Positions 960 through 56,803 of a stretch of 64,000 nt of DNA are shown here, one piece after another. Numbering within the stretch: the first letter of the stretch is position 1; the number at the start of each line of letters is the position of its first letter. The stretch spans positions 248,001 through 312,000 of the forward strand of contig NW_013524651.1 in assembly GCF_000250985.1 (NCBI RefSeq). The letters are read 5' to 3'. The translations under genes were made by a program, and so were the position numbers. Source of the stretch: Nematocida parisii ERTm1. Taxonomy: Eukaryota; Microsporidia. The notes under the pieces were generated by a model. The model did not search any database and was not told the origin of the DNA. It worked only from the letters and a program-made list of their open reading frames with translations.

Positions 960-3332
960 TTATGACAATGCAATCATGTACAGATTTCTGTATAAGTGAG
1001 AAATAAGAGATTCTTGTGGTATAATTAATTTTTCATTAATACAGCGAACCTGTGCATTCCAAAAATTAAATGCTCTATTGTTCTGTAAATCTATTACATT
1101 GGATTTAATTTCCTGTATAACATACTCAGATGGAATGCAATGATAATTATCTGTTGGTGTATTGATTAAAACAAAGTCCCATGGAGCATCGTTTGTTAGG
1201 AATATACCAATTTCATAATCCTTTGGGTCAAGGAAATCAAAGAATTTACACGCACATGCATGTTGCGCTTTAAACAGAGCGCCGGGGGTTTTGAATACCT
1301 TATTAAGGAAATCTTTGTCATTCTCGGCCACAAAACCCTCTATGGGAATCTTCAAGGGAATATTTATAGGCCGGCAGATTTTTGTATCCATAATCCTTTC
1401 CTGGCAAATAAGCACACCATTTTTCTCTTCAACTCTTTTAAATACATTGTCTAGGTGCTTGTAGAAGTAATTATTTCTGTTTATCGTAAAATAATTGTGA
1501 TAGTTATTAAATGCATATGCTTCTCCTGATGTGAGTTTCTTATTCGCTGTATACGTATCTGGAACTATAACCGGCATGGTGGATAATTCAGCGAAGGACA
1601 TTCTGTTAGGAGAGTTTATCGATTTATATCCTATTATTTGCTCTCTTGTTATTTCTGTAAGTATAACAGGAATTGGCATATTTTTTAATGTTTCTTCGCC
1701 AGAACTAAATATAGCAAAATTATATATTCTTTCATATATATTGGCATGCTTCCACACAAAGTAAAATACAACATGATCCTTACATAAACTCTCTATTGTA
1801 TTTACTTCCATCTCATTGTCTGTAATTCTCACCCAGTAAATATCAGATCCTGTTTTTTTCTTTTTGTATGCCATAATAACACCCAGCACATCAGAAGTTT
1901 CCATTAATTTCATTAGATATATTTTTATCTCTGCTAGTGTGTGTGGTTTTACAATTGTGCTTCTATTGCCCATCGTCCTTGAAATAGTTGGTAGCCATTT
2001 GCATTCATACTGCATAGTGCACGTATTCACAAAGTGTATAGCATAGAATAACTTTTTTTTATCGCTCATTTTTCCTATTAATCTGTGCTGAATTCCATCC
2101 TCTTCAAATGCAGAGCTTTCTTTGAATTCAATTCTCTTGTCAGAGCCTGGGATATTCTCATTTAAGTGCAAAGATGTAGTTAAGCTTCTGCACTTTGGTT
2201 TAATAAAAACATCACCTGGCTTACCAATTATATTCCGAATACATTTCAATTGAACTTTTTTTGAATGGCACAGTTCATAAAATACATCCATTGCCTTAAG
2301 ATATATATTATGCGTAAGGAATATCATTTGCTGTTGAGTCTCAAAATATAATAATTTAGCAAAGTTTGAGATTATTGTATCATAATTGCTCGGGTTGCAG
2401 AGTTCTGAAAATGAATTTAATAGCATTTCATCATCACGAATGTAAATATAAACTGGGACCATATCACACACATCTGTTCTTTTATCTAGAACCTTCTGAA
2501 TAGCAGTCACAAAAACACGAATATGCTTCAGAAGAAATATAAATGAATCTGTTGATTTACACTTTTTGAAGTCTTCTATTCTATTGAATTCGTCGTTATC
2601 TATGGTTAAAAGGTCATTGTATATCATGCTGTTTTTAATAAGCATGGAGATAACAATGTACATACACCTTTGTAATTTGCCTATTATTTTTTGTGTGTTA
2701 TATGTTAATGTTAGGGGGCTTATGTAGCGAAGTACAATCCTGTTCATTGGCCTGAATAATTTACGAATATTATGTTTTTCTGCCAAAACTGGAAAATCGA
2801 TGCTTCTTACTTTTTGTAGTATTTGGTTATGATCTGTTAATAAATGCATGGGGAATACATCTTCCATATATGTGCACACTGTCTTTATTAAACTAGGTTG
2901 CCATTTATTACACCTATCTAGTATTTTATAATACGTATACCGTTCTCTTGTTTCACTTGAGCTGCAGACACTACTATATATAATTAACTCTTTCATATGG
3001 TTAATGCTTAGTCTTTTAATAACACTAAATATTGTATGAACTATCTCGCAAACAGGGCTCCTATGCTCTATGCATGCATAGTTCTCACTTAAAACCTGTT
3101 CAAGGATTGCACGCAGTTCTAGCTCCCATTCTAAAATATTTTCAAACTGTCCTATAAGCCTATTGTTATTTATAGGAAAAGGAGTTCTATACAGACTGCC
3201 TCCCATAATATTATTTGAACTGAGCACATCTGTGTTTATACTAATGCCGTCTGCGCATTTACTTTTTGTTATTAGCGTTATAAGAAATACAGTTAGTGCA
3301 AGAATGTGCTTTATTCTCTTATCTATACACAT
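960..3332 (-). CDS. Lineage-specific secreted protein, function unknown
   Basis: This encodes 790 residues, starting at an ATG preceded on its own strand by an AAATTTTAT stretch. Residues 1-26 form a classic signal peptide: a basic start (MCIDKRIK), a hydrophobic core (ILALTVFLITLIT), then KSKCA as a plausible cleavage region. The rest has no membrane span that I can see and contains about 25 scattered cysteines, which suits an oxidised extracellular or ER-lumen protein. I recognise no domain. Large signal-peptide proteins of unknown function placed between housekeeping genes are typical of Nematocida-type microsporidia, where many are thought to face the host; for this protein that is inference only. 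It does not visibly resemble the other secreted proteins here at 10.7-13.4, 30.5-32.4 or 35.1-36.6 kb. Confidence 0.75.
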   Translation of the reverse strand: MCIDKRIKHILALTVFLITLITKSKCADGISINTDVLSSNNIMGGSLYRTPFPINNNRLIGQFENILEWELELRAILEQVLSENYACIEHRSPVCEIVHTIFSVIKRLSINHMKELIIYSSVCSSSETRERYTYYKILDRCNKWQPSLIKTVCTYMEDVFPMHLLTDHNQILQKVRSIDFPVLAEKHNIRKLFRPMNRIVLRYISPLTLTYNTQKIIGKLQRCMYIVISMLIKNSMIYNDLLTIDNDEFNRIEDFKKCKSTDSFIFLLKHIRVFVTAIQKVLDKRTDVCDMVPVYIYIRDDEMLLNSFSELCNPSNYDTIISNFAKLLYFETQQQMIFLTHNIYLKAMDVFYELCHSKKVQLKCIRNIIGKPGDVFIKPKCRSLTTSLHLNENIPGSDKRIEFKESSAFEEDGIQHRLIGKMSDKKKLFYAIHFVNTCTMQYECKWLPTISRTMGNRSTIVKPHTLAEIKIYLMKLMETSDVLGVIMAYKKKKTGSDIYWVRITDNEMEVNTIESLCKDHVVFYFVWKHANIYERIYNFAIFSSGEETLKNMPIPVILTEITREQIIGYKSINSPNRMSFAELSTMPVIVPDTYTANKKLTSGEAYAFNNYHNYFTINRNNYFYKHLDNVFKRVEEKNGVLICQERIMDTKICRPINIPLKIPIEGFVAENDKDFLNKVFKTPGALFKAQHACACKFFDFLDPKDYEIGIFLTNDAPWDFVLINTPTDNYHCIPSEYVIQEIKSNVIDLQNNRAFNFWNAQVRCINEKLIIPQESLISHLYRNLYMIALS

Positions 3333-3497
3333 CGATAAAATTTAAATAATTTTAGTTATAGTTTAAAGATAAAGCTTAAATAAAATTCTATTTATTCATT
3401 TGATTTTTCAAAAAAGAATAAAAATAGAGTGAAGAGTCGCCTAAAAGGGAAATGATCTGAGAAAGATTTACAAAAAAGATAACAAACGGTAAACCCG

Positions 3498-5342
3498 TTA
3501 TTTAAAATTACCAGCTGCTTTTACAGAATTAGTTTGTTCTTTTTCCTGGCTTAGAGATATTCCTGTTAATCGGTTTAGCTCACATAGCCTTTCCATAATA
3601 TTTTCTGATGAATCCACTATAATTAGTCTATCTCTTTCTATTAAGTGAGTCTCCTTTGTTAGAATCTCCTGTACCTCTACTGCATCTAAAATTGCTTCTA
3701 AGTCTGTGCGAATGACTTTATACGGCATGTATGGGTTTGGTAATATTCTGGCTAGAATTATTTCATTTTCTTTGACTGTATACTGTCTAAGCTTTTCTTC
3801 TATGTGAGCAGTTTCTATTCCAATGAAGGAGTCGCGGCCATTGTACGTGTATGCATTATTTATGAGCAATTCTACGTCCTTCACGGTGTCTGCAAATGAT
3901 TTGTACTTAAGTTTAGATATTCTTTGCTTTATAAGATCAAGTGATACGGGCGTCCGTATTATAGAGGAGTACCCTGGGGCAATATCATCTGTAATTTGCT
4001 CTTTAAATAGAGAATGCCTGTCTGCAGCTGTTAATGCATTGTGCAGAGATTGGATCTGATTGTATCCCTTAATGAATTTAGAGATAAGCGAGATTCTGTT
4101 GCTTTCCATATCTAAAATGTGCTTGGATGTTGTGTCTGCTATGTTCTCTGCGAGCTTGTATGAATTCACGATTCTGTGCGTAGTGACTGCGCATATGTTA
4201 TACAAGTACTTTTCTGCTGCGGGTAGGACTATTTCTTCTGGAAGTTTTAAAATCGCGTGTAAAATATTTGATTCCCTGGTAATTGCCGGATTCTCTGTAA
4301 ACACTCTCTTCCCCCAGTGGTTGAACTCATCTGAAGGAGAGTCAATGCGAAGCCTTTTTATGATGGTTCTGTCCTTCTTTCTGGCTTGCCATGCAGCAAA
4401 CATGTCTTTAATGCAGGATGCGCTTGATTTTATATTGGGTAGATCACGCTCTGCAATTCGGTTGACCACATAATCAGAAATTTTTACAGGAACATTTTCA
4501 ATTTCTAAGTGAACTCTTCTCTGCGGCTGCCATAGCGGGACATAGTTGTGAAGGACTGGAGGATTTTCAAGCACGGGGTAATTGCTATCAGGAGACCGCG
4601 TCATGGCCAGTTCTGCTTTTTTCTTTGGATCATGCTCAGTGCAAAATAAAATTCCGTTGGCAATGTCTATGTACTTCTGGCTTTCAACAGCACAAGTCGC
4701 ATGGTAGTATCTGCGACAGCCATAGTATGCACAGTTTGCCACACCTCCTTTCTTAAACCCGCACTCTGTGCAGTGGTGCTGGCTCCTGTGCACATCATCT
4801 ATGTCAACGGGCTCAACCAAAGAAACATTCTCAAACCGCGCACCGGGTATGAGTAAGCCGCATATCACATGGCACCAAAACCCATTTCTGGTTCGCTTGT
4901 ATGCTCCGCCCAGTGAAGAGCACAGAATGCAACTAATTACTTTTTTTGGTGACAAAAGGCATGGCCGACAGAGCCAACTGCCCTCTGGAATGTGCGGTAC
5001 TCCGTAGCAAGACTGGTGAACAGCAATATTACACCCATCACAGAACACAAGAAAGTTGTCATCTTCCGTTTCCTTTCCTCCACATATATTGCACTCCTCT
5101 GACAAATCATCGCCATCAGATATTTTTGTTATGGCAATTCGTTGCAAAAAGTGATGCTCTTTTTCTAGTCTGTCCATGACCAGTTCATACATGTCCTCTG
5201 TGAACCAAGAGTGCCTGCTCTGTAAATACTGCAGAATGTCTCTGTCTGTTTCGTCCATATTGTATTCTATATCGTGCGCTGTGGGTTTTCTTCTTCCCTC
5301 CAGTGACTCAACAATAATTCTTCTTGCGTTCTTTATATGCAT
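3498..5342 (-). CDS. PHD / extended-PHD / bromodomain protein, BRPF/Nto1-like
   Basis: This 614-residue chromatin reader has the domain order of BRPF and yeast Nto1. A canonical PHD finger lies at about residues 84-128 (CNICGG, then CDGCNIAVHQSCYG, then WLCRPC). A zinc knuckle and extended PHD finger lie at about 138-238 (CILCSSLGGAYKRT, WCHVICG, CTECGFKKGG, CAYYGCRRYYHATCA, FCTEHD). A bromodomain lies at about 415-517, with the acetyl-lysine Asn in the NNAYTYN segment. Such proteins scaffold MYST acetyltransferase complexes (NuA3 in yeast) and target them to histone H3 tails. The PWWP domain of animal BRPF is absent; the protein ends about 97 residues after the bromodomain. The gene lies in a minus-strand run with the Kre33 and Pol alpha B genes. 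The start ATG is followed closely by conserved sequence and preceded by a T-rich stretch. Confidence 0.85.
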   Translation of the reverse strand: MHIKNARRIIVESLEGRRKPTAHDIEYNMDETDRDILQYLQSRHSWFTEDMYELVMDRLEKEHHFLQRIAITKISDGDDLSEECNICGGKETEDDNFLVFCDGCNIAVHQSCYGVPHIPEGSWLCRPCLLSPKKVISCILCSSLGGAYKRTRNGFWCHVICGLLIPGARFENVSLVEPVDIDDVHRSQHHCTECGFKKGGVANCAYYGCRRYYHATCAVESQKYIDIANGILFCTEHDPKKKAELAMTRSPDSNYPVLENPPVLHNYVPLWQPQRRVHLEIENVPVKISDYVVNRIAERDLPNIKSSASCIKDMFAAWQARKKDRTIIKRLRIDSPSDEFNHWGKRVFTENPAITRESNILHAILKLPEEIVLPAAEKYLYNICAVTTHRIVNSYKLAENIADTTSKHILDMESNRISLISKFIKGYNQIQSLHNALTAADRHSLFKEQITDDIAPGYSSIIRTPVSLDLIKQRISKLKYKSFADTVKDVELLINNAYTYNGRDSFIGIETAHIEEKLRQYTVKENEIILARILPNPYMPYKVIRTDLEAILDAVEVQEILTKETHLIERDRLIIVDSSENIMERLCELNRLTGISLSQEKEQTNSVKAAGNFK

Positions 5343-5399
5343 AGAGAAAAATCCGAAAACAAATTTTAAGTGGTTAAAAGACCAAAGAGCGCTTTATTT

Positions 5400-7769
5400 T
5401 TATGCGGAGTGGGAGAGAGAAGCCATTGCCTTAGCAATTAGCATTTTCACTTGTGAGTGCTGTAATTTCAGCTCCTTTGTAAGATCTTCTATTGTTTTGT
5501 GTTGTAAGCCCATTCCCAGCAAAATTATCTTTTGGGTTGTAGAGACAGTTGATTTCTTTGTCTTTAAGACTTCCTTTGCCAGCATAGGGAGAAGGTCTGC
5601 AACTATCCTTAGATCTAAATTACAACGAGAGAACTGTTGCATTCGCTGGATCTTTGATTCTGCAAACTCGGCTATGTCCTCCTGGAATGGAGCAATTATT
5701 TGCAGAGCAATGAGTGTAGAAACAGTGCTAAAACATCCAGGAAGAAGTTCTAAGAATCTCTCAGTAAACTCTCTTTGGTATACGTTCACTTTTTCTTGTG
5801 CTTTCGTAGACAGTGCTCGCATCATAATTAGTGAGTGTTCACCAGTGGTCTTGCAGAGGGTGTGCTTTAAATAAACTGCCTTCATGTCTAGTCGCAGCCA
5901 GAATTCAAGCAGCCGCTGAGTCACTCCAAATGATACGCCAATATAATCAATTCTGCCCATTGCGAGATCAGAGAAAAGAATCGTATTCTTGCTTGATGTG
6001 CTCTGGCATGTATTTACGGTTGTGGCCCTTATGATCTCTTCTACAAGATATGATCCGTACCCCATTGACTGTGCATCTGGGTGAATGGCAATTCTGATAA
6101 TACGCAGACCTACCTGCTCAAATATATCCATGTCCAGGAAGTACTGTGAGAGTGACCAGGGGATTAAATTACCCTTTTCTGTTCTCTTTTCATTATATTT
6201 CTGCTGTGTCTCATTAAGGGCTGATTTACTGCCCTCCTTCACGCACTGCGCCAAACCCAGCACTCTTCCGTCCTCTGTTAATAATGTGACTAAAGTATGG
6301 TGCTGGTCATCTGCAAGAGTCTGCAGATCATTTGGACTGTTTTTGTAATGGCCAGACAGAAGTATGCTGGACAGTGCCCTAAGAATCTTTTCAGTCTCTT
6401 CATGGCCCGAAAATAAAAGTGCTTTATTAACCGTGTACACCTTGCACTTTTCTCGTGCTGGGAACGTAATCATTTTTGGTATTTCAGGTGACAGTGACAG
6501 GGCATTGTTTAGCCAATACTCTACTGGATCATGCCGCCTGTACCGAATTGGCTCTTCCAGCCTGATAATTTCTGGGTTCAATGACTTAAACAGCTTCAGT
6601 GAAAGTGCCCTTCCAGTACCCTCATACCCAGCAGTTGTAGATGAAATAAGTGTAGGATACATCCCAAGCATATCTTTTAGTGTGGGCAGTGGAACAGCTG
6701 CAGCCTCATCCACTACAAGCATAGACGGTGAGTGCACTAGTTTCTGCGGTGGCATAAACCGAATGGTCTGATAATGCGTCTTTGAAATAGAAATTTTTTC
6801 AATGGATTTCTTGGCTGTTTTAGAGTACTCCACAAAGAAATCAAATTGTTCTTTGTACCCGTTCGCAGTTAGGCCTACAATAATAAACTGGAATAATGTC
6901 TGAACATTTGATAAGTGCGGTGCAGATATTAAAATATCGTTCAGTCCCTTTACAACAGCATGTGCAACAGAAAGACCAAGTGCTGCAGACTTTCCCCTTC
7001 CTCTGTCAGCAGTAATAGCGATTAGTGCCCTTTTATCTATGGTCTCTGTTAGAGTTAGTACAGCATCTGCTTGGTCCTGTGTTCTGCACTGTTTCATTAA
7101 GACCGCTGTACTATTTGCACATACCACACTCAGTGGGTTCAGCATATTAGCAGAGTCTTTTACTTTCTGTATCTTCTGGTCAAGAATATTTTGCATGTTC
7201 TCTTTATCCTCTAATAACTCTTCTACAACAGTAGTTGATTCTTTAAGTACATTCAGCTGAGTGTCCAGTATCATATAATTATCTGCTGACTGTAGTAAGT
7301 GGTAAAGCCTTTTTGTGTATATATTCTGCGTCTCTTCAACTGGAAGTAGAATCACTCCACCACCCTTTACACTCTCCACTACACTCGCCAGTGCATTAGC
7401 AGGTATCTTTGTAAAGTCTTGGAGGATGCAGAAGTCAGTGGTTGTTCCCAAGACTTTTTCTGCTTCATTGTGAAATACGTAATTTATCTCAGTGTTCACA
7501 ATAAATGATTCAAAATTAGAAAGTGCCACCTCCCCGGCATTCTTTCTTTTCTTTGCCTGGCCTATTTTATGCGTCTTTGCTTCTAGCTCTTTTTCGTATA
7601 CCCATAAGACATTTGGTCTAATAGTGTATCTAGATAGTAATGAGTGGATATGGTGGACTACTTCCTTGACTTTACCGCATACTCCAATTATACAACGGTG
7701 CTTGTTCTTGACACTCTCTTCTAATAGACTCAGCAGTCTCTTGTCGACTCTTTCTTTATGAGTTGTCAT
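5400..7769 (-). CDS. KRE33: RNA cytidine acetyltransferase (Kre33/NAT10)
   Basis: This encodes 789 residues from the ATG at 7769; the frame opens six codons earlier only at a TTG. Kre33/NAT10 makes N4-acetylcytidine in 18S rRNA and in tRNA (with a Tan1-type adaptor), using ATP and acetyl-CoA, in the nucleolus. The N-terminal region is the TmcA-like domain. A helicase core follows, with Walker A ADRGRGKSAALG near residues 253-264 and Walker B LVVDEAAAVPLP. A GNAT domain carries IAIHPDAQSMGYGSYLV, whose QSMGYG fits the acetyl-CoA-binding Q/R-x-x-G-x-G/A motif. A C-terminal tRNA-binding-like segment closes the protein. It is about 230 residues shorter than human NAT10 and lacks the lysine-rich tail. 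The nearest upstream sequence carries two copies of a 19-bp near-palindrome (7855-7920) that may be regulatory. Confidence 0.92.
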   Translation of the reverse strand: MTTHKERVDKRLLSLLEESVKNKHRCIIGVCGKVKEVVHHIHSLLSRYTIRPNVLWVYEKELEAKTHKIGQAKKRKNAGEVALSNFESFIVNTEINYVFHNEAEKVLGTTTDFCILQDFTKIPANALASVVESVKGGGVILLPVEETQNIYTKRLYHLLQSADNYMILDTQLNVLKESTTVVEELLEDKENMQNILDQKIQKVKDSANMLNPLSVVCANSTAVLMKQCRTQDQADAVLTLTETIDKRALIAITADRGRGKSAALGLSVAHAVVKGLNDILISAPHLSNVQTLFQFIIVGLTANGYKEQFDFFVEYSKTAKKSIEKISISKTHYQTIRFMPPQKLVHSPSMLVVDEAAAVPLPTLKDMLGMYPTLISSTTAGYEGTGRALSLKLFKSLNPEIIRLEEPIRYRRHDPVEYWLNNALSLSPEIPKMITFPAREKCKVYTVNKALLFSGHEETEKILRALSSILLSGHYKNSPNDLQTLADDQHHTLVTLLTEDGRVLGLAQCVKEGSKSALNETQQKYNEKRTEKGNLIPWSLSQYFLDMDIFEQVGLRIIRIAIHPDAQSMGYGSYLVEEIIRATTVNTCQSTSSKNTILFSDLAMGRIDYIGVSFGVTQRLLEFWLRLDMKAVYLKHTLCKTTGEHSLIMMRALSTKAQEKVNVYQREFTERFLELLPGCFSTVSTLIALQIIAPFQEDIAEFAESKIQRMQQFSRCNLDLRIVADLLPMLAKEVLKTKKSTVSTTQKIILLGMGLQHKTIEDLTKELKLQHSQVKMLIAKAMASLSHSA

Positions 7770-26340: not shown

Positions 26341-26869
26341 TTTCTAGTTATACAATCATGGCTTAATACACTAAAAATAGAAATAATACTGCTTGAATGA
26401 TTTCTGGTATTTTGAATTATCAGAACATTCAGAATGTGCACTGTCCTGTACTGAAGATAATTTACAAGTGGTTTTATGTATTATACGCTTATATTTGCTA
26501 TTGTTTTATTATTCTATAGATAATAAAAGTACTTAAAACTTACTACACATATATCATAAAATTATGAATATAATTATTATAAATTACTACAGTAAATACA
26601 GGCATAAGTGAATAAACAAATAAATGTATATTTATGTTTAGCTTTAATGCCAAATAATACGGATTGTTCATTATTATAAAAATTAGCAGGTAGTAAAATA
26701 AAAGTATATTAATAAAATAAGGATTTAAATAAAATGTGAACTATGCATAATTTATTAAAAATAAAATATTATTTATGCCTTATATAAAATATATAATGAT
26801 CTTTTCTTAAAAAAAATAATAAGATAGAGTTACCACAGGAATATAAAAGAAGAAAGAATTCAGAAAAGA
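26341..26869. other. AT-rich intergenic spacer
   Basis: This is a 529-bp, very AT-rich spacer between two plus-strand genes (TFB4 and the Mei2-like RRM gene). No short gene or structured RNA is visible. Confidence 0.55.
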
Positions 26870-27729: not shown

Positions 27730-28161
27730 TTATACACCTTTACACTTGTTTAATAATTCCTTTGACTTTTCTAAAAGAGCCAGCTGGTCTGTTAAAATAC
27801 TACCAGCCTGTGCGCATGACTGCTTGTCATAAAACCATAGCCCAAATACTTCAATTTCCTTCTTGTGGGCTATTTTTATAATAATAAACCGGTCGAAAAT
27901 CTCTATGCCGTGCACTGCTTTGTCTATCAAAAGATGAAAATCTGCAGGTGCTTTTCGATTTAGCACCAGAATGCATGTGGATGGAATTATTTTTCTCTTA
28001 TACAAATGGATTGCTCCTTCTGTGCATGTATTAATCCATTTGTTCTCATATTTAAGGACCAAAACGTTAATAGATGTTAGGAGTAGGTGACTATACTGTG
28101 CGTCCTTTCCTTTGAGCATTCTATTAGTTACTTCATTTGTCGGTGGTCTCTTTGTGTGCAT
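27730..28161 (-). CDS. DCP1: mRNA decapping protein 1 (Dcp1), EVH1-like
   Basis: This encodes 143 residues. Dcp1 activates the Dcp2 nuclease that removes the mRNA 5' cap in 5'-to-3' decay. The fold is a single EVH1-like domain. Readable family blocks are the strand with VLVLKYENKWINTCTEGAIH, the STCILVLNRKAP strand, and the C-terminal FGLWFYDKQSCAQAG, matching the YGIWFYDKEEC consensus just before the last helix. The length suits a minimal Dcp1 without the proline-rich tail of animal forms. The gene is divergent from DOA1 (35 bp between the start codons) and convergent with the Mei2-like gene. Confidence 0.85.
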   Translation of the reverse strand: MHTKRPPTNEVTNRMLKGKDAQYSHLLLTSINVLVLKYENKWINTCTEGAIHLYKRKIIPSTCILVLNRKAPADFHLLIDKAVHGIEIFDRFIIIKIAHKKEIEVFGLWFYDKQSCAQAGSILTDQLALLEKSKELLNKCKGV

Positions 28162-28196
28162 GTTTCCCTTGTTTTAATTGGTTTTTTTTATTTGTT

Positions 28197-29909
28197 ATGG
28201 CACATATTCAAGTTCTGAAGAAACTTCATGCCTCAGATATAAAAGACGGAGTAATTTACGAAAACCGGCTGTATACTGTCGGAAGAGACCGGGTTGTGCA
28301 CATATCCTCACTGCCTGATTTAGAAAGTGTTGGAGGGTCAGAAAACCTTGGTGCACCTATAAACTCTGTGTGCATACACAATGCAGTTTTGTATGCGGGA
28401 CTGCAGACAGGAGAGATAGTAAGGTATGCAATAGAAATGGATGAAAACAGTGAAGAATCTGGCAGTGCTGGGAAAAAAGAGATTACTCTTAAGCTGCTAG
28501 GAAGAAGTAAAGTGCATGGAGACAATGTATGCTCATTAAGCAGCTTTGATGAGGGGGTTATTAGCACATCCTGGGATGGTTCAGTTGGTGTGATTAAAGA
28601 AAATCAATCTCCAGAAGTAATAAGAATAGAAAGTGTTGCTTGGTCGGCTAAGAAAGTCCCTAATGAAGATACAATTATAGCTGGATGTATAGATGGGTCT
28701 ATATGCACGATTAAAAAAGTAAATGGAAGATATACCCAGGTTAAAGGTATAAAACTGCATGCTACTTGCATTAGAGACATCTGTATGGAGAACGATCGGT
28801 ATGCCACGGTATCCAACACAGGTGTAGTTATTGTTACAGAGCGCAATGGCCGGGTGCTTCATAAGATGGATCTAAATAACACTAGCTTTAGAATAAATAA
28901 GTACACAGCAGGAAATGCCACTGGTTACATTGTTTCTGCAGATGAGGGAATGGTTTATCTTTTAAGTGAGACTCTAGAAAGCCTTTTCAGTATAGCTGCG
29001 CCCACTCTTTCTTGCTGGAATGCACTGTCAGAAAATGGCAGAATATTTGCACTAGGCGCTGATGGAAGAGTATATGTTTTTGCCGATAAGGAAGGCAATC
29101 CGCAGTACCAAAAAGAGCTAGAAGAGTTACAGAATAAGATGGGAAGCGACAAAGTACAAGACACTGCACCGCCAGCCCAAAAACAAGCAGAGGATGCAAA
29201 TAGCAGCCCACAGTACAAAGTAATTGATGATAAAGTATATGAGCTAAAAGACGGGGAGTGGGAATTATTTGGGAGCACCGTGGAGAAGAAAAAGAAAGAC
29301 CATACAATTACAATTACCCTAGGAGAGGCCAACTATACACTCTCATTTGACAAAACAGATAAGTATGAAGAGGTGGCACTTGGATTTGTAAAAGAAAACA
29401 ATTTGGGCACAGAATACATTCCAGAAATTGTTGAGTTTTTAGACAAGAACTTTGGAAATAAGAAGAAAAGAGACGTGTCGAAATACTTTATGTATGATAC
29501 GATTGACCTTGATATTGTTGGAAAAAAGATTCAGCCACTTCCTAACAGCAGCACTGTAATTGAATTTCTGCAGGGCATAAAGAATGGAAAGTCCTCCCAG
29601 CATAATGAGTCAGATGTAGAGGTAATTCTAAGCGAATGGATGGAAATGGGAACAGAAAAAGTAGCAGTTCTTGATGTGTATAAGTACTTAATTGCTAAAG
29701 GTGTAGACATAAATTTGTCATTCTTAAAACACATAGACCCATTTTTTTGTAAAAAAGTAGCTCTTGTCTTTTCTCTTATTTCTACAAATGTGCTAGCCAT
29801 GCGCCCAGAGTGCAAGTCACTGGTTGACAATACAATGACAAAAATAATTGACAAGCAATTAGTAAATTCTAAAGTTCTTCAGAACTACAAAAACAACAGA
29901 AGGCTTTAA
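28197..29909 (+). CDS. DOA1: Doa1/Ufd3 (PLAA), WD40-PFU-PUL ubiquitin adaptor of Cdc48
   Basis: This encodes 570 residues from the ATG at 28197; the frame is open 20 codons further up, but the family starts at the WD40 propeller. Residues 1-310 form the propeller. Residues about 336-420 are the PFU ubiquitin-binding domain: YKVIDDKVYELKDGEWELFG, then ANYTLSFDKTDKYEEVALGF. The remainder starts with KYFMYDTIDLD and corresponds to a shortened PUL domain that binds Cdc48/p97. Doa1 routes ubiquitinated clients, including mitochondrial and ribosome-associated ones, to Cdc48. It is about 145 residues shorter than yeast Doa1, mostly in PUL. The 35-bp divergent promoter is shared with DCP1. Confidence 0.9.
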   Translation: MAHIQVLKKLHASDIKDGVIYENRLYTVGRDRVVHISSLPDLESVGGSENLGAPINSVCIHNAVLYAGLQTGEIVRYAIEMDENSEESGSAGKKEITLKLLGRSKVHGDNVCSLSSFDEGVISTSWDGSVGVIKENQSPEVIRIESVAWSAKKVPNEDTIIAGCIDGSICTIKKVNGRYTQVKGIKLHATCIRDICMENDRYATVSNTGVVIVTERNGRVLHKMDLNNTSFRINKYTAGNATGYIVSADEGMVYLLSETLESLFSIAAPTLSCWNALSENGRIFALGADGRVYVFADKEGNPQYQKELEELQNKMGSDKVQDTAPPAQKQAEDANSSPQYKVIDDKVYELKDGEWELFGSTVEKKKKDHTITITLGEANYTLSFDKTDKYEEVALGFVKENNLGTEYIPEIVEFLDKNFGNKKKRDVSKYFMYDTIDLDIVGKKIQPLPNSSTVIEFLQGIKNGKSSQHNESDVEVILSEWMEMGTEKVAVLDVYKYLIAKGVDINLSFLKHIDPFFCKKVALVFSLISTNVLAMRPECKSLVDNTMTKIIDKQLVNSKVLQNYKNNRRL

Positions 29910-30011: not shown

Positions 30012-30368
30012 TATATAGAATATATCTGTGGTGTCATCACCACTCAAGCGCGCAGGCTCGAGACCGATCCTCCAATGCGCCTACGCGCGCGGTGATCCAG
30101 CCTTCGCAAAAGGCCCGGATCTAATAATCACAAATTAACTTTGGACTATATAAGTAGCACGCACCCAGACAATACTGGGACAACTACGGGAAACATTTAC
30201 CACAAGGCTCAGCGCCAATAGCGCCACAAGGACTCCGCGTCCGCGCACATCCCAATATTCTAATAATCATAATAAAGAGCATCCCTTAATACTATCTTTA
30301 TCTATCCTGGACTATGTTATCCGGGTGGCGACGGTGCCTCCTCGTGAGCACATTATATAGAATATATC
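30012..30368. repeat. 15-bp direct repeat flanking the structured element (possible target-site duplication)
   Basis: TATATAGAATATATC occurs at 30012-30026 and again at 30354-30368, exactly flanking the GC-rich element. An exact 15-bp match at both borders is the size expected for a target duplication made by LINE-type retroposition. The word is low in complexity and similar AT strings occur elsewhere (a shorter match near 52180), so chance is possible. Confidence 0.5.
30027..30353 (-). ncRNA. Structured RNA-like element, copy A
   Basis: This GC-rich island of about 327 nt lies in an AT-rich spacer. Read on the minus strand it aligns end to end with copy B (53360-53693). Shared blocks include TGCGCGGAC..GGAGTCC, TTGGCGCTGA, ATAGTC..AAGTT, GGGATCACC-like and the terminal TGACACCACAG. 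The ends can pair: CGTCGCCAC near 30335 with GTGGTGATG near 30035 gives nine pairs including two G-U. No codon pattern is visible. I recognise no known RNA: it lacks an SRP domain IV loop, RNase P CR motifs and tRNA boxes. It may be a non-coding RNA gene, a SINE-like retroposon or a MITE. It sits between DOA1 and a secreted protein. Confidence 0.6.
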
Positions 30369-30528: not shown

Positions 30529-32385
30529 ATGAGGTACATTAAGGAAGCCATACTATGCACATTAGCACTGTTCCTATGCAAGTGCTCAGTAGAAGAAACG
30601 GAAGAAAGCCCATTTTATGGAAGACACACGTCAGATGATTCAACAGTCAATGAATCATGCATTTCAAATGAATGTTCATTTGATATAGCGACTATATCAT
30701 ATGATCGTAGAGCATCAACAATTTCAGATATATTAAATACTATTAATAGTTTAAATGAGAGCAGTATGGCAGAATGCGAAGCTACATTTCCGGAAGAAAA
30801 CAGATCAATAACTAGAAATAGTTCTTTCACACTGTCATGTGTGGCTGCATCTAAATATAAAAAAATAGACGAAAAACTAATTAGGGACTTTAACAATAAC
30901 TGTATGGCGTTAAAGTTCTTTTCAAAAGATCAGATTGATGATATACTCAAAAATTGGGAGTCTATTCACGCAAAGTATTTAGAAATAATTTCCAACGTAG
31001 ATGATCCTCTAATAGAATTAATTCATGATATAGAAACCAACTCAGAAATAATAGCTAGCAATGACTGCAATGAAAAAACTACTGAAATAGAAGAATATAT
31101 AAAGAAGATAGAAGGAATATTTGGGAGTCAAAATATAATAGAAGAAGACAGAAAAGGATTGTATGAATGCTTGAATGCTCTAAAAAATGTTGGCGAAGAA
31201 AATATTAAACTTGTTTTTAAGAATAGTAATGATAGGATGCGCGGACTCCATAAAATAGTAGATTCTGCCAAAAATGCAATTAAAGATGAGTTTAATAAAA
31301 TCTATTTTCAGAGCTGTTTTAAACTAAAAAAGAAAAAAGTCTATTTTCAGAAGAACAAGGATAAAAAAGAAATAATCTGGAGAATTGTTGATTTAATGAA
31401 TATAATTGTAAGGCTAGCAGAAAAAATACAGAATGGCATACTTGAACCAAGCAAATCTTTAATATCTGATCTTGCTAAACATGGAATGAACGCGGATAAT
31501 GACATGCAAATAGGATCAAGTAGTCTAAAAGACTGTATAAAAACAATTGAGAGTATATTGTTTGCAGCAACTCCTGGGTTTATTACTATAGAATTAACAA
31601 GTAAAATGAAAATGTTCGTAAGAGATGAAATGTTGAGCATAAAAAATAAGCATAATAATAATCCAAATATGATTTGTAAACTTATTATAAGTGTCGTCTG
31701 TAAAAGTCTACTTAATCACTTTATTGCAGAGTCAAGTTCTTCCAGAGATGTCTTTTTATTTGGGTGCAACCTTAAAGCGAACTTTTCTGCAATACAAGCA
31801 GGAATAAAGTTCTATCATATATTAGAAAATATCGAACTACGAAGCAAAAATGTAAAACAATCTTCCCTGAGAGCAAGCAAAAGAAGAACAGTCACTTCCT
31901 ATTTTACATCATTATTTGACAGAAAAAATGGTTCTATAACTGAACAAATAAAAAGTGCTGAAAATGATTTAAAACATGCACTGATGGAATCTTCACGTGA
32001 ATTAGAAAATAAGAAACCTCCCTCAAAAAACAATGTATTTATGTACTTGGGAAACATAGACTACTTTGAACAGCCATTTGATAATGAATCCAAGTATAAT
32101 AGATTGATTTCAGAAGTATTCAGTTACATCGATTATGAGATGGATAGTCTGAATAATACTTTTAAAATGAAAAATGATACATCTCATAATATAAACGCGC
32201 TTGCTATATATACAGTATTGTTCTACCGTATAATGACACTTGCTTCAATAGAAAATATTCTAATCGATATGAATTTCATGGCAGTGTCAAAATACGCATT
32301 GCGAATAGTTGCTAATCAGTCAGATGAGCAGAAGTATATTATGAATTTTTTGCTTAACCCAGATAGTATACTTTCTTTCGAATAA
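30529..32385 (+). CDS. Lineage-specific secreted protein, function unknown
   Basis: This encodes 618 residues. The N-terminus MRYIKEAILCTLALFLCKC is a signal peptide, with cleavage likely near CKCSVEE. The mature part begins with a Ser/Thr/Glu-rich stretch and continues as charged, helical sequence with about 15 cysteines; no membrane span is clear. No domain is recognised. Unlike nearby housekeeping genes, its upstream stretch is A-rich (AAATAAATATTAATG) rather than T-rich. It lies next to copy A of the structured element and in the same 6-kb interval as an LRR-like secreted protein, so this region looks like an accessory island between DOA1 and RPN6. Confidence 0.7.
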   Translation: MRYIKEAILCTLALFLCKCSVEETEESPFYGRHTSDDSTVNESCISNECSFDIATISYDRRASTISDILNTINSLNESSMAECEATFPEENRSITRNSSFTLSCVAASKYKKIDEKLIRDFNNNCMALKFFSKDQIDDILKNWESIHAKYLEIISNVDDPLIELIHDIETNSEIIASNDCNEKTTEIEEYIKKIEGIFGSQNIIEEDRKGLYECLNALKNVGEENIKLVFKNSNDRMRGLHKIVDSAKNAIKDEFNKIYFQSCFKLKKKKVYFQKNKDKKEIIWRIVDLMNIIVRLAEKIQNGILEPSKSLISDLAKHGMNADNDMQIGSSSLKDCIKTIESILFAATPGFITIELTSKMKMFVRDEMLSIKNKHNNNPNMICKLIISVVCKSLLNHFIAESSSSRDVFLFGCNLKANFSAIQAGIKFYHILENIELRSKNVKQSSLRASKRRTVTSYFTSLFDRKNGSITEQIKSAENDLKHALMESSRELENKKPPSKNNVFMYLGNIDYFEQPFDNESKYNRLISEVFSYIDYEMDSLNNTFKMKNDTSHNINALAIYTVLFYRIMTLASIENILIDMNFMAVSKYALRIVANQSDEQKYIMNFLLNPDSILSFE

Positions 32386-53252: not shown

Positions 53253-53359
53253 CCATATTCAGAAAGATATAGTTTAAATGCGATCTTTCATATAATAAAT
53301 TAGCTATAGATAATCTGAAAATATAAACAGGATATGTTTATTCCTTTAATCTGCTTGAC

Positions 53360-53693
53360 ATACCCACAAGGAGTCACGCCACCGCCGCCCTGCTACATAG
53401 CCAAGAGAGAAGAGATTGAAAGGGGAGAGCTCTTTATTCTCTTTAGGAAGCAGCCCAATCCTGCGCGGACATGGAGTCCCGGGCGCAGTTGTGTTAGGCT
53501 TGGCGCTGAAGTTAAGCCATCGAGGCTTCCCTGAGTCTCTCTCTACATTGTGGGAAGAACTCCAGTTAAATAGTCGGAAGTTGATATACTGATTCAGAGA
53601 TCTCGGCCTTTGCTTTGGCGGGATCACCACACGAGCTGGCACGCAGAAGGATTGTCCTCGGGGAGTCACGTCTGAGTGGCGGCGTCACCACAG
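53360..53693 (+). ncRNA. Structured RNA-like element, copy B
   Basis: This ~334-nt GC-rich block aligns end to end with copy A (minus strand, 30027-30353) and copy C (56500-56803). It looks like the most intact copy. Blocks shared with A include CTACATAG-like start, GAGCTCTTTATT, TGCGCGGACATGGAGTCC, TTGGCGCTGAAGTTAAGCC and GTGGCGGCGTCACCACAG. CGCCGCC at the 5' side pairs with GGCGGCG at the 3' side, closing the molecule. The word GGAGTCACG occurs at both ends. Reading frames in it are only overlaps without coding character. It does not fold as tRNA or 5S rRNA, and a GGAAGCAGCC string resembling the bacterial SRP loop is not kept in A. Confidence 0.62.
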
Positions 53694-56254: not shown

Positions 56255-56508
56255 TTAGAATAATAGAAAATTATTCATAACTTCTTTTGCTTCAGTGGGA
56301 TATATCATGAATATACTAAGAATAATTATATAAACAATTATAATTATTGCTACAGCAATCTTTAATATTTTAGTAGTCCAGAAATTTATAGCTTCTTTTT
56401 CATTAAGTTTTTGTTCATTCCTGCTTTCTGGTTCTATTTCATCTTCAGTTTTTAGAGCATTATTTATAAATATGCTAGTGTTTTTATAGACTTATTAACT
56501 GCAGACAT
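56255..56508 (-). pseudogene. Small tail-anchored protein gene, frameshifted or remnant
   Basis: On minus, an ATG at 56508 opens MSAVNKSIKT and stops after 14 codons. The next frame, open from 56491 to the stop at 56255, continues with acidic sequence (KTEDEIEPESRNEQKLNEKE) and a strong C-terminal span (ILKIAVAIIIIVYIIILSIF), ending VMNNFLLF. Adding one A in the A5 run near 56481 would give a continuous ~84-residue tail-anchored protein. The second frame has no ATG of its own upstream of the acidic part. It may be a real gene with an assembly error or a decayed one. Its 5' end overlaps the start of element copy C. Confidence 0.4.
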
Positions 56509-56803
56509 TGTTAAGATAGAGAAGAGAGTGGAAGGGGAAAGCTCTTCATGCATTTAGGATTCGGTCTAAGCGTGTACAGACTCGGAGTCCAAGAGCACAG
56601 TTATGTTAGACCTGGTGCTGAAGTTAAGCCGTCGATGCTTTCCTGAGTCTCCTCTTAAGTTGAGAAAATAACTCGGGTTAAATAGTCGAAAGTTAATCTA
56701 CTGATTTGTGATTTTAGCCCTTTTTGTGGTGAGATCATCATGAAAGATGGCACACTAATGAATCGTCCTCGATAGCTCATGCCTAAGTGGTGGTATTGCC
56801 ACA
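56500..56803 (+). ncRNA. Structured RNA-like element, copy C (decayed)
   Basis: This aligns with copy B over about 300 nt: AGAAGAGAG, GGGGA-AGCTCTT, GACTCGGAGTCC-like, TGGTGCTGAAGTTAAGCC, CCTGAGTCTC, GTTAAATAGTC-AAGTT and AAGTGGTGGTATTGCCACA. Most differences from B are G or C replaced by A or T. The 5' half of the closing helix is gone. This is the picture of a copy drifting to the local base composition without selection. Its beginning overlaps the start of a small minus-strand gene remnant. Confidence 0.55.

Follow-up and report, generated by a model that had tools for sequence, protein, structure and literature searches.

A GC-rich island lies in the AT-rich spacer between two genes of the microsporidian Nematocida parisii, a parasite of Caenorhabditis elegans with a compact (4-Mb) genome, and raises the question of what kind of element it represents. 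The preliminary description of the 64,000-nucleotide stretch analysed here, which we refer to as the window, had proposed an unrecognised mobile element with pairing ends and a possible 15-bp target duplication, either a MITE or a SINE-like retroposon originating from a structured RNA. We consider it very probable that this block (copy A) and its reversed counterpart in the same window (copy B) are solo LTRs of a single LTR-retrotransposon family comprising two subfamilies. The supposed new class of element is thereby replaced by an LTR family that is real, mobile, recently active and of an ordinary, known kind.

The GC-rich block was present in its AT-rich spacer as described, and it aligns end to end and in reverse orientation with the block near 53360, at 60.8% identity in the family alignment. 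Both blocks are real, but alignment of the copies corrected their limits. Copy A, assigned to the A subfamily, runs from 30027 to 30355 on the plus strand (TGTGGTG...GAGCACATTA; model match 30027-30354), its ends having been set by comparison with 48 complete copies of the genome-wide family, and copy B, of the B subfamily, occupies 53356-53692 on the minus strand (genome search, model match). A third LTR copy, degraded, of B type and missing its 3' part, was located at 56505-56803 on the minus strand (genome search, C6:304518-304808; model match). Upstream of copy A lies a host gene for a phospholipase A2-activating protein (PLAA)-like product (28137-29909, plus strand), whose best named relative, at 67%, is from N. 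ausubeli. Downstream, a host ORF of 618 aa without a Pfam match (30529-32385, plus strand) starts 173 bp past the LTR in the same direction.

A genome-wide search for copies, as the preliminary description had proposed, revealed a family far beyond chance: counting fragments, the genome of 3.98 Mb contains at least 61 copies. Copy A gave at least 37 own-genome matches and copy B at least 42, some of which are pieces of one copy, with best non-self matches at E-values of 1.2e-115 and 1.2e-130, respectively. Fifty-nine copies, fragments included, were fetched (19 via copy A and 40 via copy B), and searches with three other members added C11:6878-7213 and C4:97509-97843, both outside the fetched set. 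Counts of ends and duplications refer to 48 complete copies (15 of A type and 33 of B type), the 11 fetched copies without a recognisable end being left out, and the family alignment comprises 46 sequences, without L054 and L060. Mean GC content is 48.5% in A-type and 54.9% in B-type complete copies, against 26.1% in the 300-bp flanks. Among the 46 aligned copies, identity ranges from 74.6 to 97.9% within A, from 66 to 100% within B, and from 49.5 to 65.6% between the subfamilies. Seven B LTRs, distributed over six loci, form 19 pairs with 98-100% identity, which indicates that the family moved recently. The pair L061/L062 is similar in both flanks and its LTRs are mutually closest, so at least this pair is attributed to duplicated host DNA rather than to two insertions. 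At another locus (L075, G000:C1:164600-165800), two B-type LTRs stand in opposite orientation about 210 bp apart.

The complete copies start with TGTGGTGACACCACCACTC and finish with GTGAG(T/C)ACGTCA or a close variant, giving the form 5'-TG...CA-3', with a TG start in 44 of 48 and a CA end in 39. The exceptions start with TA (four copies) or end with TA (eight) or TG (one). The fuzzy motif used to locate the ends itself contains TG and CA; these counts are thus not independent of it, and the flush 5-bp repeats serve as the independent check. An exact 5-bp target duplication flanks 18 of the 48 copies, and five more match at four of the five positions, whereas a flank-shuffled control yielded a mean of 0.93 and a maximum of 4 exact duplications in 300 trials. 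Duplication lengths of 3, 4, 6, 7 and 8 bp showed no enrichment in that register across the same copies. In the remaining 25, which include copies A and B, at most three of the five positions match; two of these are the paired LTRs of one element, and age or recombination may account for copies without the duplication.

The exact 15-bp direct repeat reported around copy A, TATATAGAATATATC, can be read directly on the plus strand at 30012-30026 and again at 30354-30368. With the LTR ending at 30355 the flush repeat measures 13 bp, or 15 bp when the final TA of the LTR is included. The 5-bp duplication, for its part, is absent at copy A (none of five positions alike) and at copy B (two of five). 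When longer flush repeats were sought in the 48 complete copies, only copy A had one, of 13 bp, and flush repeats did not exceed 8 bp when flanks were combined into 2256 cross pairs, compared with 13-15 bp at copy A. A 15-bp target duplication was therefore ruled out as a family feature, the long flush repeat being confined to this one locus and the family value being 5 bp; nor did such a direct repeat recur around other copies. Its origin in a tandem target, or in capture at a break with long overhangs, is our guess.

Microsporidian Ty3/gypsy LTR retrotransposons are defined by a pair of LTRs, TG...CA ends, a 5-bp duplication and a polypurine tract; LTR retrotransposons in general have a constant target duplication of 4-6 bp. 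The LTRs of the present family are approximately 330-340 bp long and contain AATAAA in all 48 complete copies and a TATA-like hexamer (TATAWA or TATTTA) in 45 (14 of 15 A, 31 of 33 B), each at one aligned place in the 46-copy alignment. In copy A, these are the TATA-box-like TATATAAG at 30147-30154 and the polyadenylation-signal-like AATAAA at 30271-30276, the latter in invariant alignment columns, both on the plus strand. The former would have a promoter role and the latter a polyadenylation role.

A two-LTR element was found at C3:268028-269802. Its LTRs are direct repeats alike at 338 of 339 positions, AGATC stands outside both of them, and a polypurine tract, AGGAGGGGCAGGA (with one C), directly precedes the TG of the 3' LTR. 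We read it as a complete element that would have transposed as a unit. Its interior, 1,097 bp long with 55% GC, holds no ORF above 119 aa. Five ORFs scanned against Pfam gave a best E-value of 0.069, below the cut-off, and a homologue search with one of them returned no protein relative. The interior has no second copy in the genome, and the flanks of the 59 fetched copies contain nothing else of it above 26 nt. A primer-binding site following the 5' LTR was sought but not recognised in a comparison with only two tRNAs; TGG is lacking from the first 30 nt, and self-priming complements do not exceed chance. Small non-autonomous LTR elements are known as the TRIM/LARD type, which the present element resembles in its two LTRs, an interior without a long ORF and the 5-bp duplication; it differs in that its interior is of intermediate size and occurs at one locus only.

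A second LTR pair (C3:384730-389090, within L069, G000:C3:384600-389300) was considered as a two-LTR element and rejected. Its A-type LTRs are 97.9% identical over 338 bp, face the same direction and lie approximately 4.0 kb apart; the 3.7 kb that they flank contain two host-like ORFs without a Pfam match (342 aa and 557 aa), and the outer flanks have no 5-bp repeat in common. The arrangement is likely to stem from local duplication or gene conversion, and possibly from gene capture.

These features bear directly on the proposal of a MITE, that is, a non-autonomous DNA transposon moved by a transposase. Size, copy number and the 5-bp duplication would fit such an element, and MITE families, some with 5-6-bp duplications and ends starting with TGT, appear in the available part of a report on Nosema (PMC4405373). 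In that part, the Nosema MITEs are likewise short and dispersed with a short flanking duplication, but they carry terminal inverted repeats of 5-34 bp, unlike the N. parisii family. Here, the 5' end reads TGTGGTGACACC and the 3' end, when reverse-complemented, TGACGTACTCAC, with only the tip TG in common. Moreover, AATAAA occupies the same alignment position in all complete copies, and in the two-LTR copy two direct copies enclose an interior with a polypurine tract. We accordingly regard a MITE as extremely unlikely and retain the solo-LTR reading.

The other original proposal was a SINE-like retroposon from a structured RNA. Such an element would rely on Pol III for its transcription and on the reverse transcriptase of a LINE for its copying, and a SINE would be expected to show a Pol III promoter or a head derived from an RNA gene, a duplication of variable length and an A/T-rich or repeat tail. 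The units are short, non-coding, dispersed and GC-rich, and copy A has its 13-15-bp flanking repeat and folds better than most shuffled sequences (z -2.25, with 3 of 100 shuffles as good). Copy B, however, folds no better than its shuffles (z -0.25). A check against Rfam, also suggested in the preliminary description, gave only a distant tRNA-Leu in the whole window at the gathering score and no match to a known RNA in either block; at a relaxed score, copies A and B yielded chance-level matches with E-values of 0.24 or worse. The sense consensus fold of the 46 aligned copies reached -12.4 kcal/mol (covariation term, -1.05 kcal/mol), and for 10 of its 28 predicted pairs one or more copies differ on both sides; the case for a structured-RNA origin is weak. 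The antisense fold reached -9.9 kcal/mol. Consensus energies within one subfamily were -33 to -57 kcal/mol, as expected of similar sequences.

The claim that the ends can pair depends on the strand. On the sense strand, which carries the TATA-like motif and AATAAA, 66.1% of the cells of the nine-pair end helix pair, a level attained by 129 of 500 shuffles, and its covariation score was reached by 34 of 500. If the minus strand is taken as the RNA, pairing does hold, with at least eight of the nine pairs in 43 of 46 copies and 96.3% of cells paired, much of it through G-U wobble. Sliding the columns by +3 nevertheless left 93.9% paired (83.1% at -3), and since the +3 slide pairs nearly as well, the antisense helix is read as triplet-repeat sequence rather than as selected RNA. 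The element may possess a functional subterminal inverted repeat. Overall, the folding predictions do not convincingly point to a conserved RNA structure in the family. A structured non-coding RNA gene was also considered and rejected, given the lack of an Rfam match, the weak covariation and the shuffles and slides that pair as well or nearly so. For the SINE-like reading, the constant 5-bp duplication abutting the CA end, the lack of a tail and the existence of a two-LTR element with a shared outer duplication weigh further against it, and it appears highly improbable.

For each complete copy, the LTR and one duplication copy were removed by script, and the joined flanks were compared with 351 kb of sequence, overlaps included. 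Two of the 48 copies, L047 and L041, matched uninterrupted sequence elsewhere. The matches for L047 are ungapped (for example, one of 50 nt with 90% identity and another of 48 nt with 89.6%), with a right side of just 17 nt there and up to 26 nt in others, and that for L041 spans 88 nt at 82% with one gap. The joined flanks of copy A had no uninterrupted paralogue in the genome. Mobility, as originally suspected, is thus borne out by a dispersed family with defined ends, target duplications and empty sites for two copies. L047 also sits within one copy of an approximately 50-bp AT-rich motif, GGCATAAATAATATTTTATTTTAATAAATCATGCATAGTTCA, that recurs in the genome, at 26729-26794 of the window and at several other loci (e.g., L087:2906-2958).

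Among 44 of the 48 insertion points (neither the two LTRs of the two-LTR element nor the inverted pair of adjacent copies being counted), five fall in an open frame of at least 150 codons, compared with 79% of random window points; the surviving copies are therefore mostly intergenic. There was no sign of tRNA targeting, one of 58 loci lying within 1.5 kb of any of the 53 predicted tRNA genes where 2.26 would be expected at random. A comparison of the flanks of the fetched copies yielded 18 similar pairs at an E-value of 1e-15. In one of them, L043/L044, approximately 600 bp of 5' flank is common at 89% right up to the LTR, while the 3' flanks differ and the two LTRs are not each other's closest relatives. 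A portion of this flank is also present, in reverse, behind L047, and this favours a host repeat; same-site insertion in duplicated DNA, LTR recombination or the remnant of another interior are possible explanations as well.

The solo-LTR reading is favoured by the number of copies, their TG...CA ends, the 5-bp duplications in a large minority, the empty sites and the two-LTR element, and also by the AATAAA and TATA-like motifs, the Ty3/gypsy genes of the genome and the scarcity of insertions in reading frames. Counting against it are the missing 5-bp duplication at copies A and B, the 13-15-bp repeat at copy A, the 25 of 48 copies with a poor duplication match, and the lack of a recognised primer-binding site and of a gag-pol copy. 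The shared 5' flank of L043/L044 and the short empty-site matches lower our confidence slightly. Under this reading, the TATA box of the LTR would drive transcription of the element, the transcript would be polyadenylated after AATAAA and then reverse transcribed, and an integrase making a 5-bp staggered cut would insert the product. The two LTRs would subsequently recombine, which would delete the interior and leave one LTR behind. Because the only two-LTR copy lacks a long ORF, its mobilisation probably took place in trans, with a Ty3/gypsy element from the same genome or a since-lost autonomous relative as the helper.

One oddity is kept in this account: 59 of the 61 copies, fragments included, stand singly, some of them very young, against one two-LTR copy without genes. 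Five of the six loci with nearly identical B LTRs hold single LTRs, each with an exact 5-bp duplication. These observations, together with an interior confined to one locus, would be explained by a single-LTR unit moving by itself, whose LTR-only transcripts or cDNA would be inserted in trans by a Ty3 integrase without a full-element stage. If true, the 340-bp unit would be mobile in its own right, as a coding-free retroelement that depends on an unrelated Ty3 element for its integrase. However, solo LTRs can arise by LTR-LTR recombination with no need of new machinery, the two-LTR copy demonstrates the existence of the ordinary route, and no priming or packaging signal was identified in the LTR. 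A further point against this reading is that remnants of a different interior may lie beside some copies (L043/L044). Recombination between LTRs is the conservative account, and the bold one, a self-sufficient single-LTR unit, seems to us very improbable.

The solo-LTR family was compared with the literature as represented by accessible portions of five papers (PMC4202319, PMC13174016, PMC7313128, PMC10393165 and PMC4405373). The microsporidian Ty3/gypsy elements resemble it in the LTR pair, TG...CA ends, 5-bp duplication and polypurine tract, and Ty3-type reverse transcriptase (RT), RNase H and integrase are encoded in the N. parisii genome. A table in the accessible portion of PMC4202319 lists four LTR-retrotransposon families for N. 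parisii, and the paper, to the same extent, concerns coding polyproteins, whereas the present family, which may be among those four, has no gag-pol inside its LTRs. The word "solo" is absent from the text of PMC4202319. No title on solo LTRs in Nematocida was found in the largely non-subscription literature on microsporidian and Nematocida retrotransposons, and the family may have been published.

Mostly intergenic LTRs with promoter- and polyadenylation-like motifs may affect neighbouring genes as well as gene annotation. Since no coding copy was found, a modest and testable question arises, namely, which integrase moved the family. A profile search of the genome returned six RVT_1 and four rve matches, two of the latter over the cut-off. 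Five of the seven frames with RVT_1 or rve combine RT with a Ty3/gypsy-type RNase H according to Pfam, and a further frame has RVT_1 alone. Integrase joins RT and RNase H in one polyprotein of 1,146 aa, which is 100% identical to a Nematocida parisii protein and has a zinc knuckle below the cut-off. Ty1/copia RT (PF07727) gave no match in this genome, and none in the control genomes either.

A gag-pol with RT, RNase H and integrase in Ty3 order is absent inside the family LTRs, the sole interior being without a long ORF. Of nine fetched RT/integrase regions, only one holds a family LTR (L021, beside a weak integrase frame), and this LTR has its own four-of-five duplication. As none of the nine contains an RT gene bounded by LTRs of this family, we infer the Ty3 assignment, like mobilisation in trans, from the presence of Ty3 genes in the genome rather than from linkage.

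The genome also carries a different LTR element (L091, G000:C1:934700-944600, at 2734-6520), in which 216-bp direct repeats, 97.7% identical, enclose two frames, one of 398 aa that has no Pfam match and one of 488 aa that encodes RT-RNase H; an integrase domain was recognised in neither. Additionally, RT plus RNase H frames without a detected integrase occur at L092:3020-6124 (1,035 aa), L093:4047-6107 (687 aa) and L094:4079-5494 (472 aa), and these are possibly domesticated or eroded Ty3 copies.
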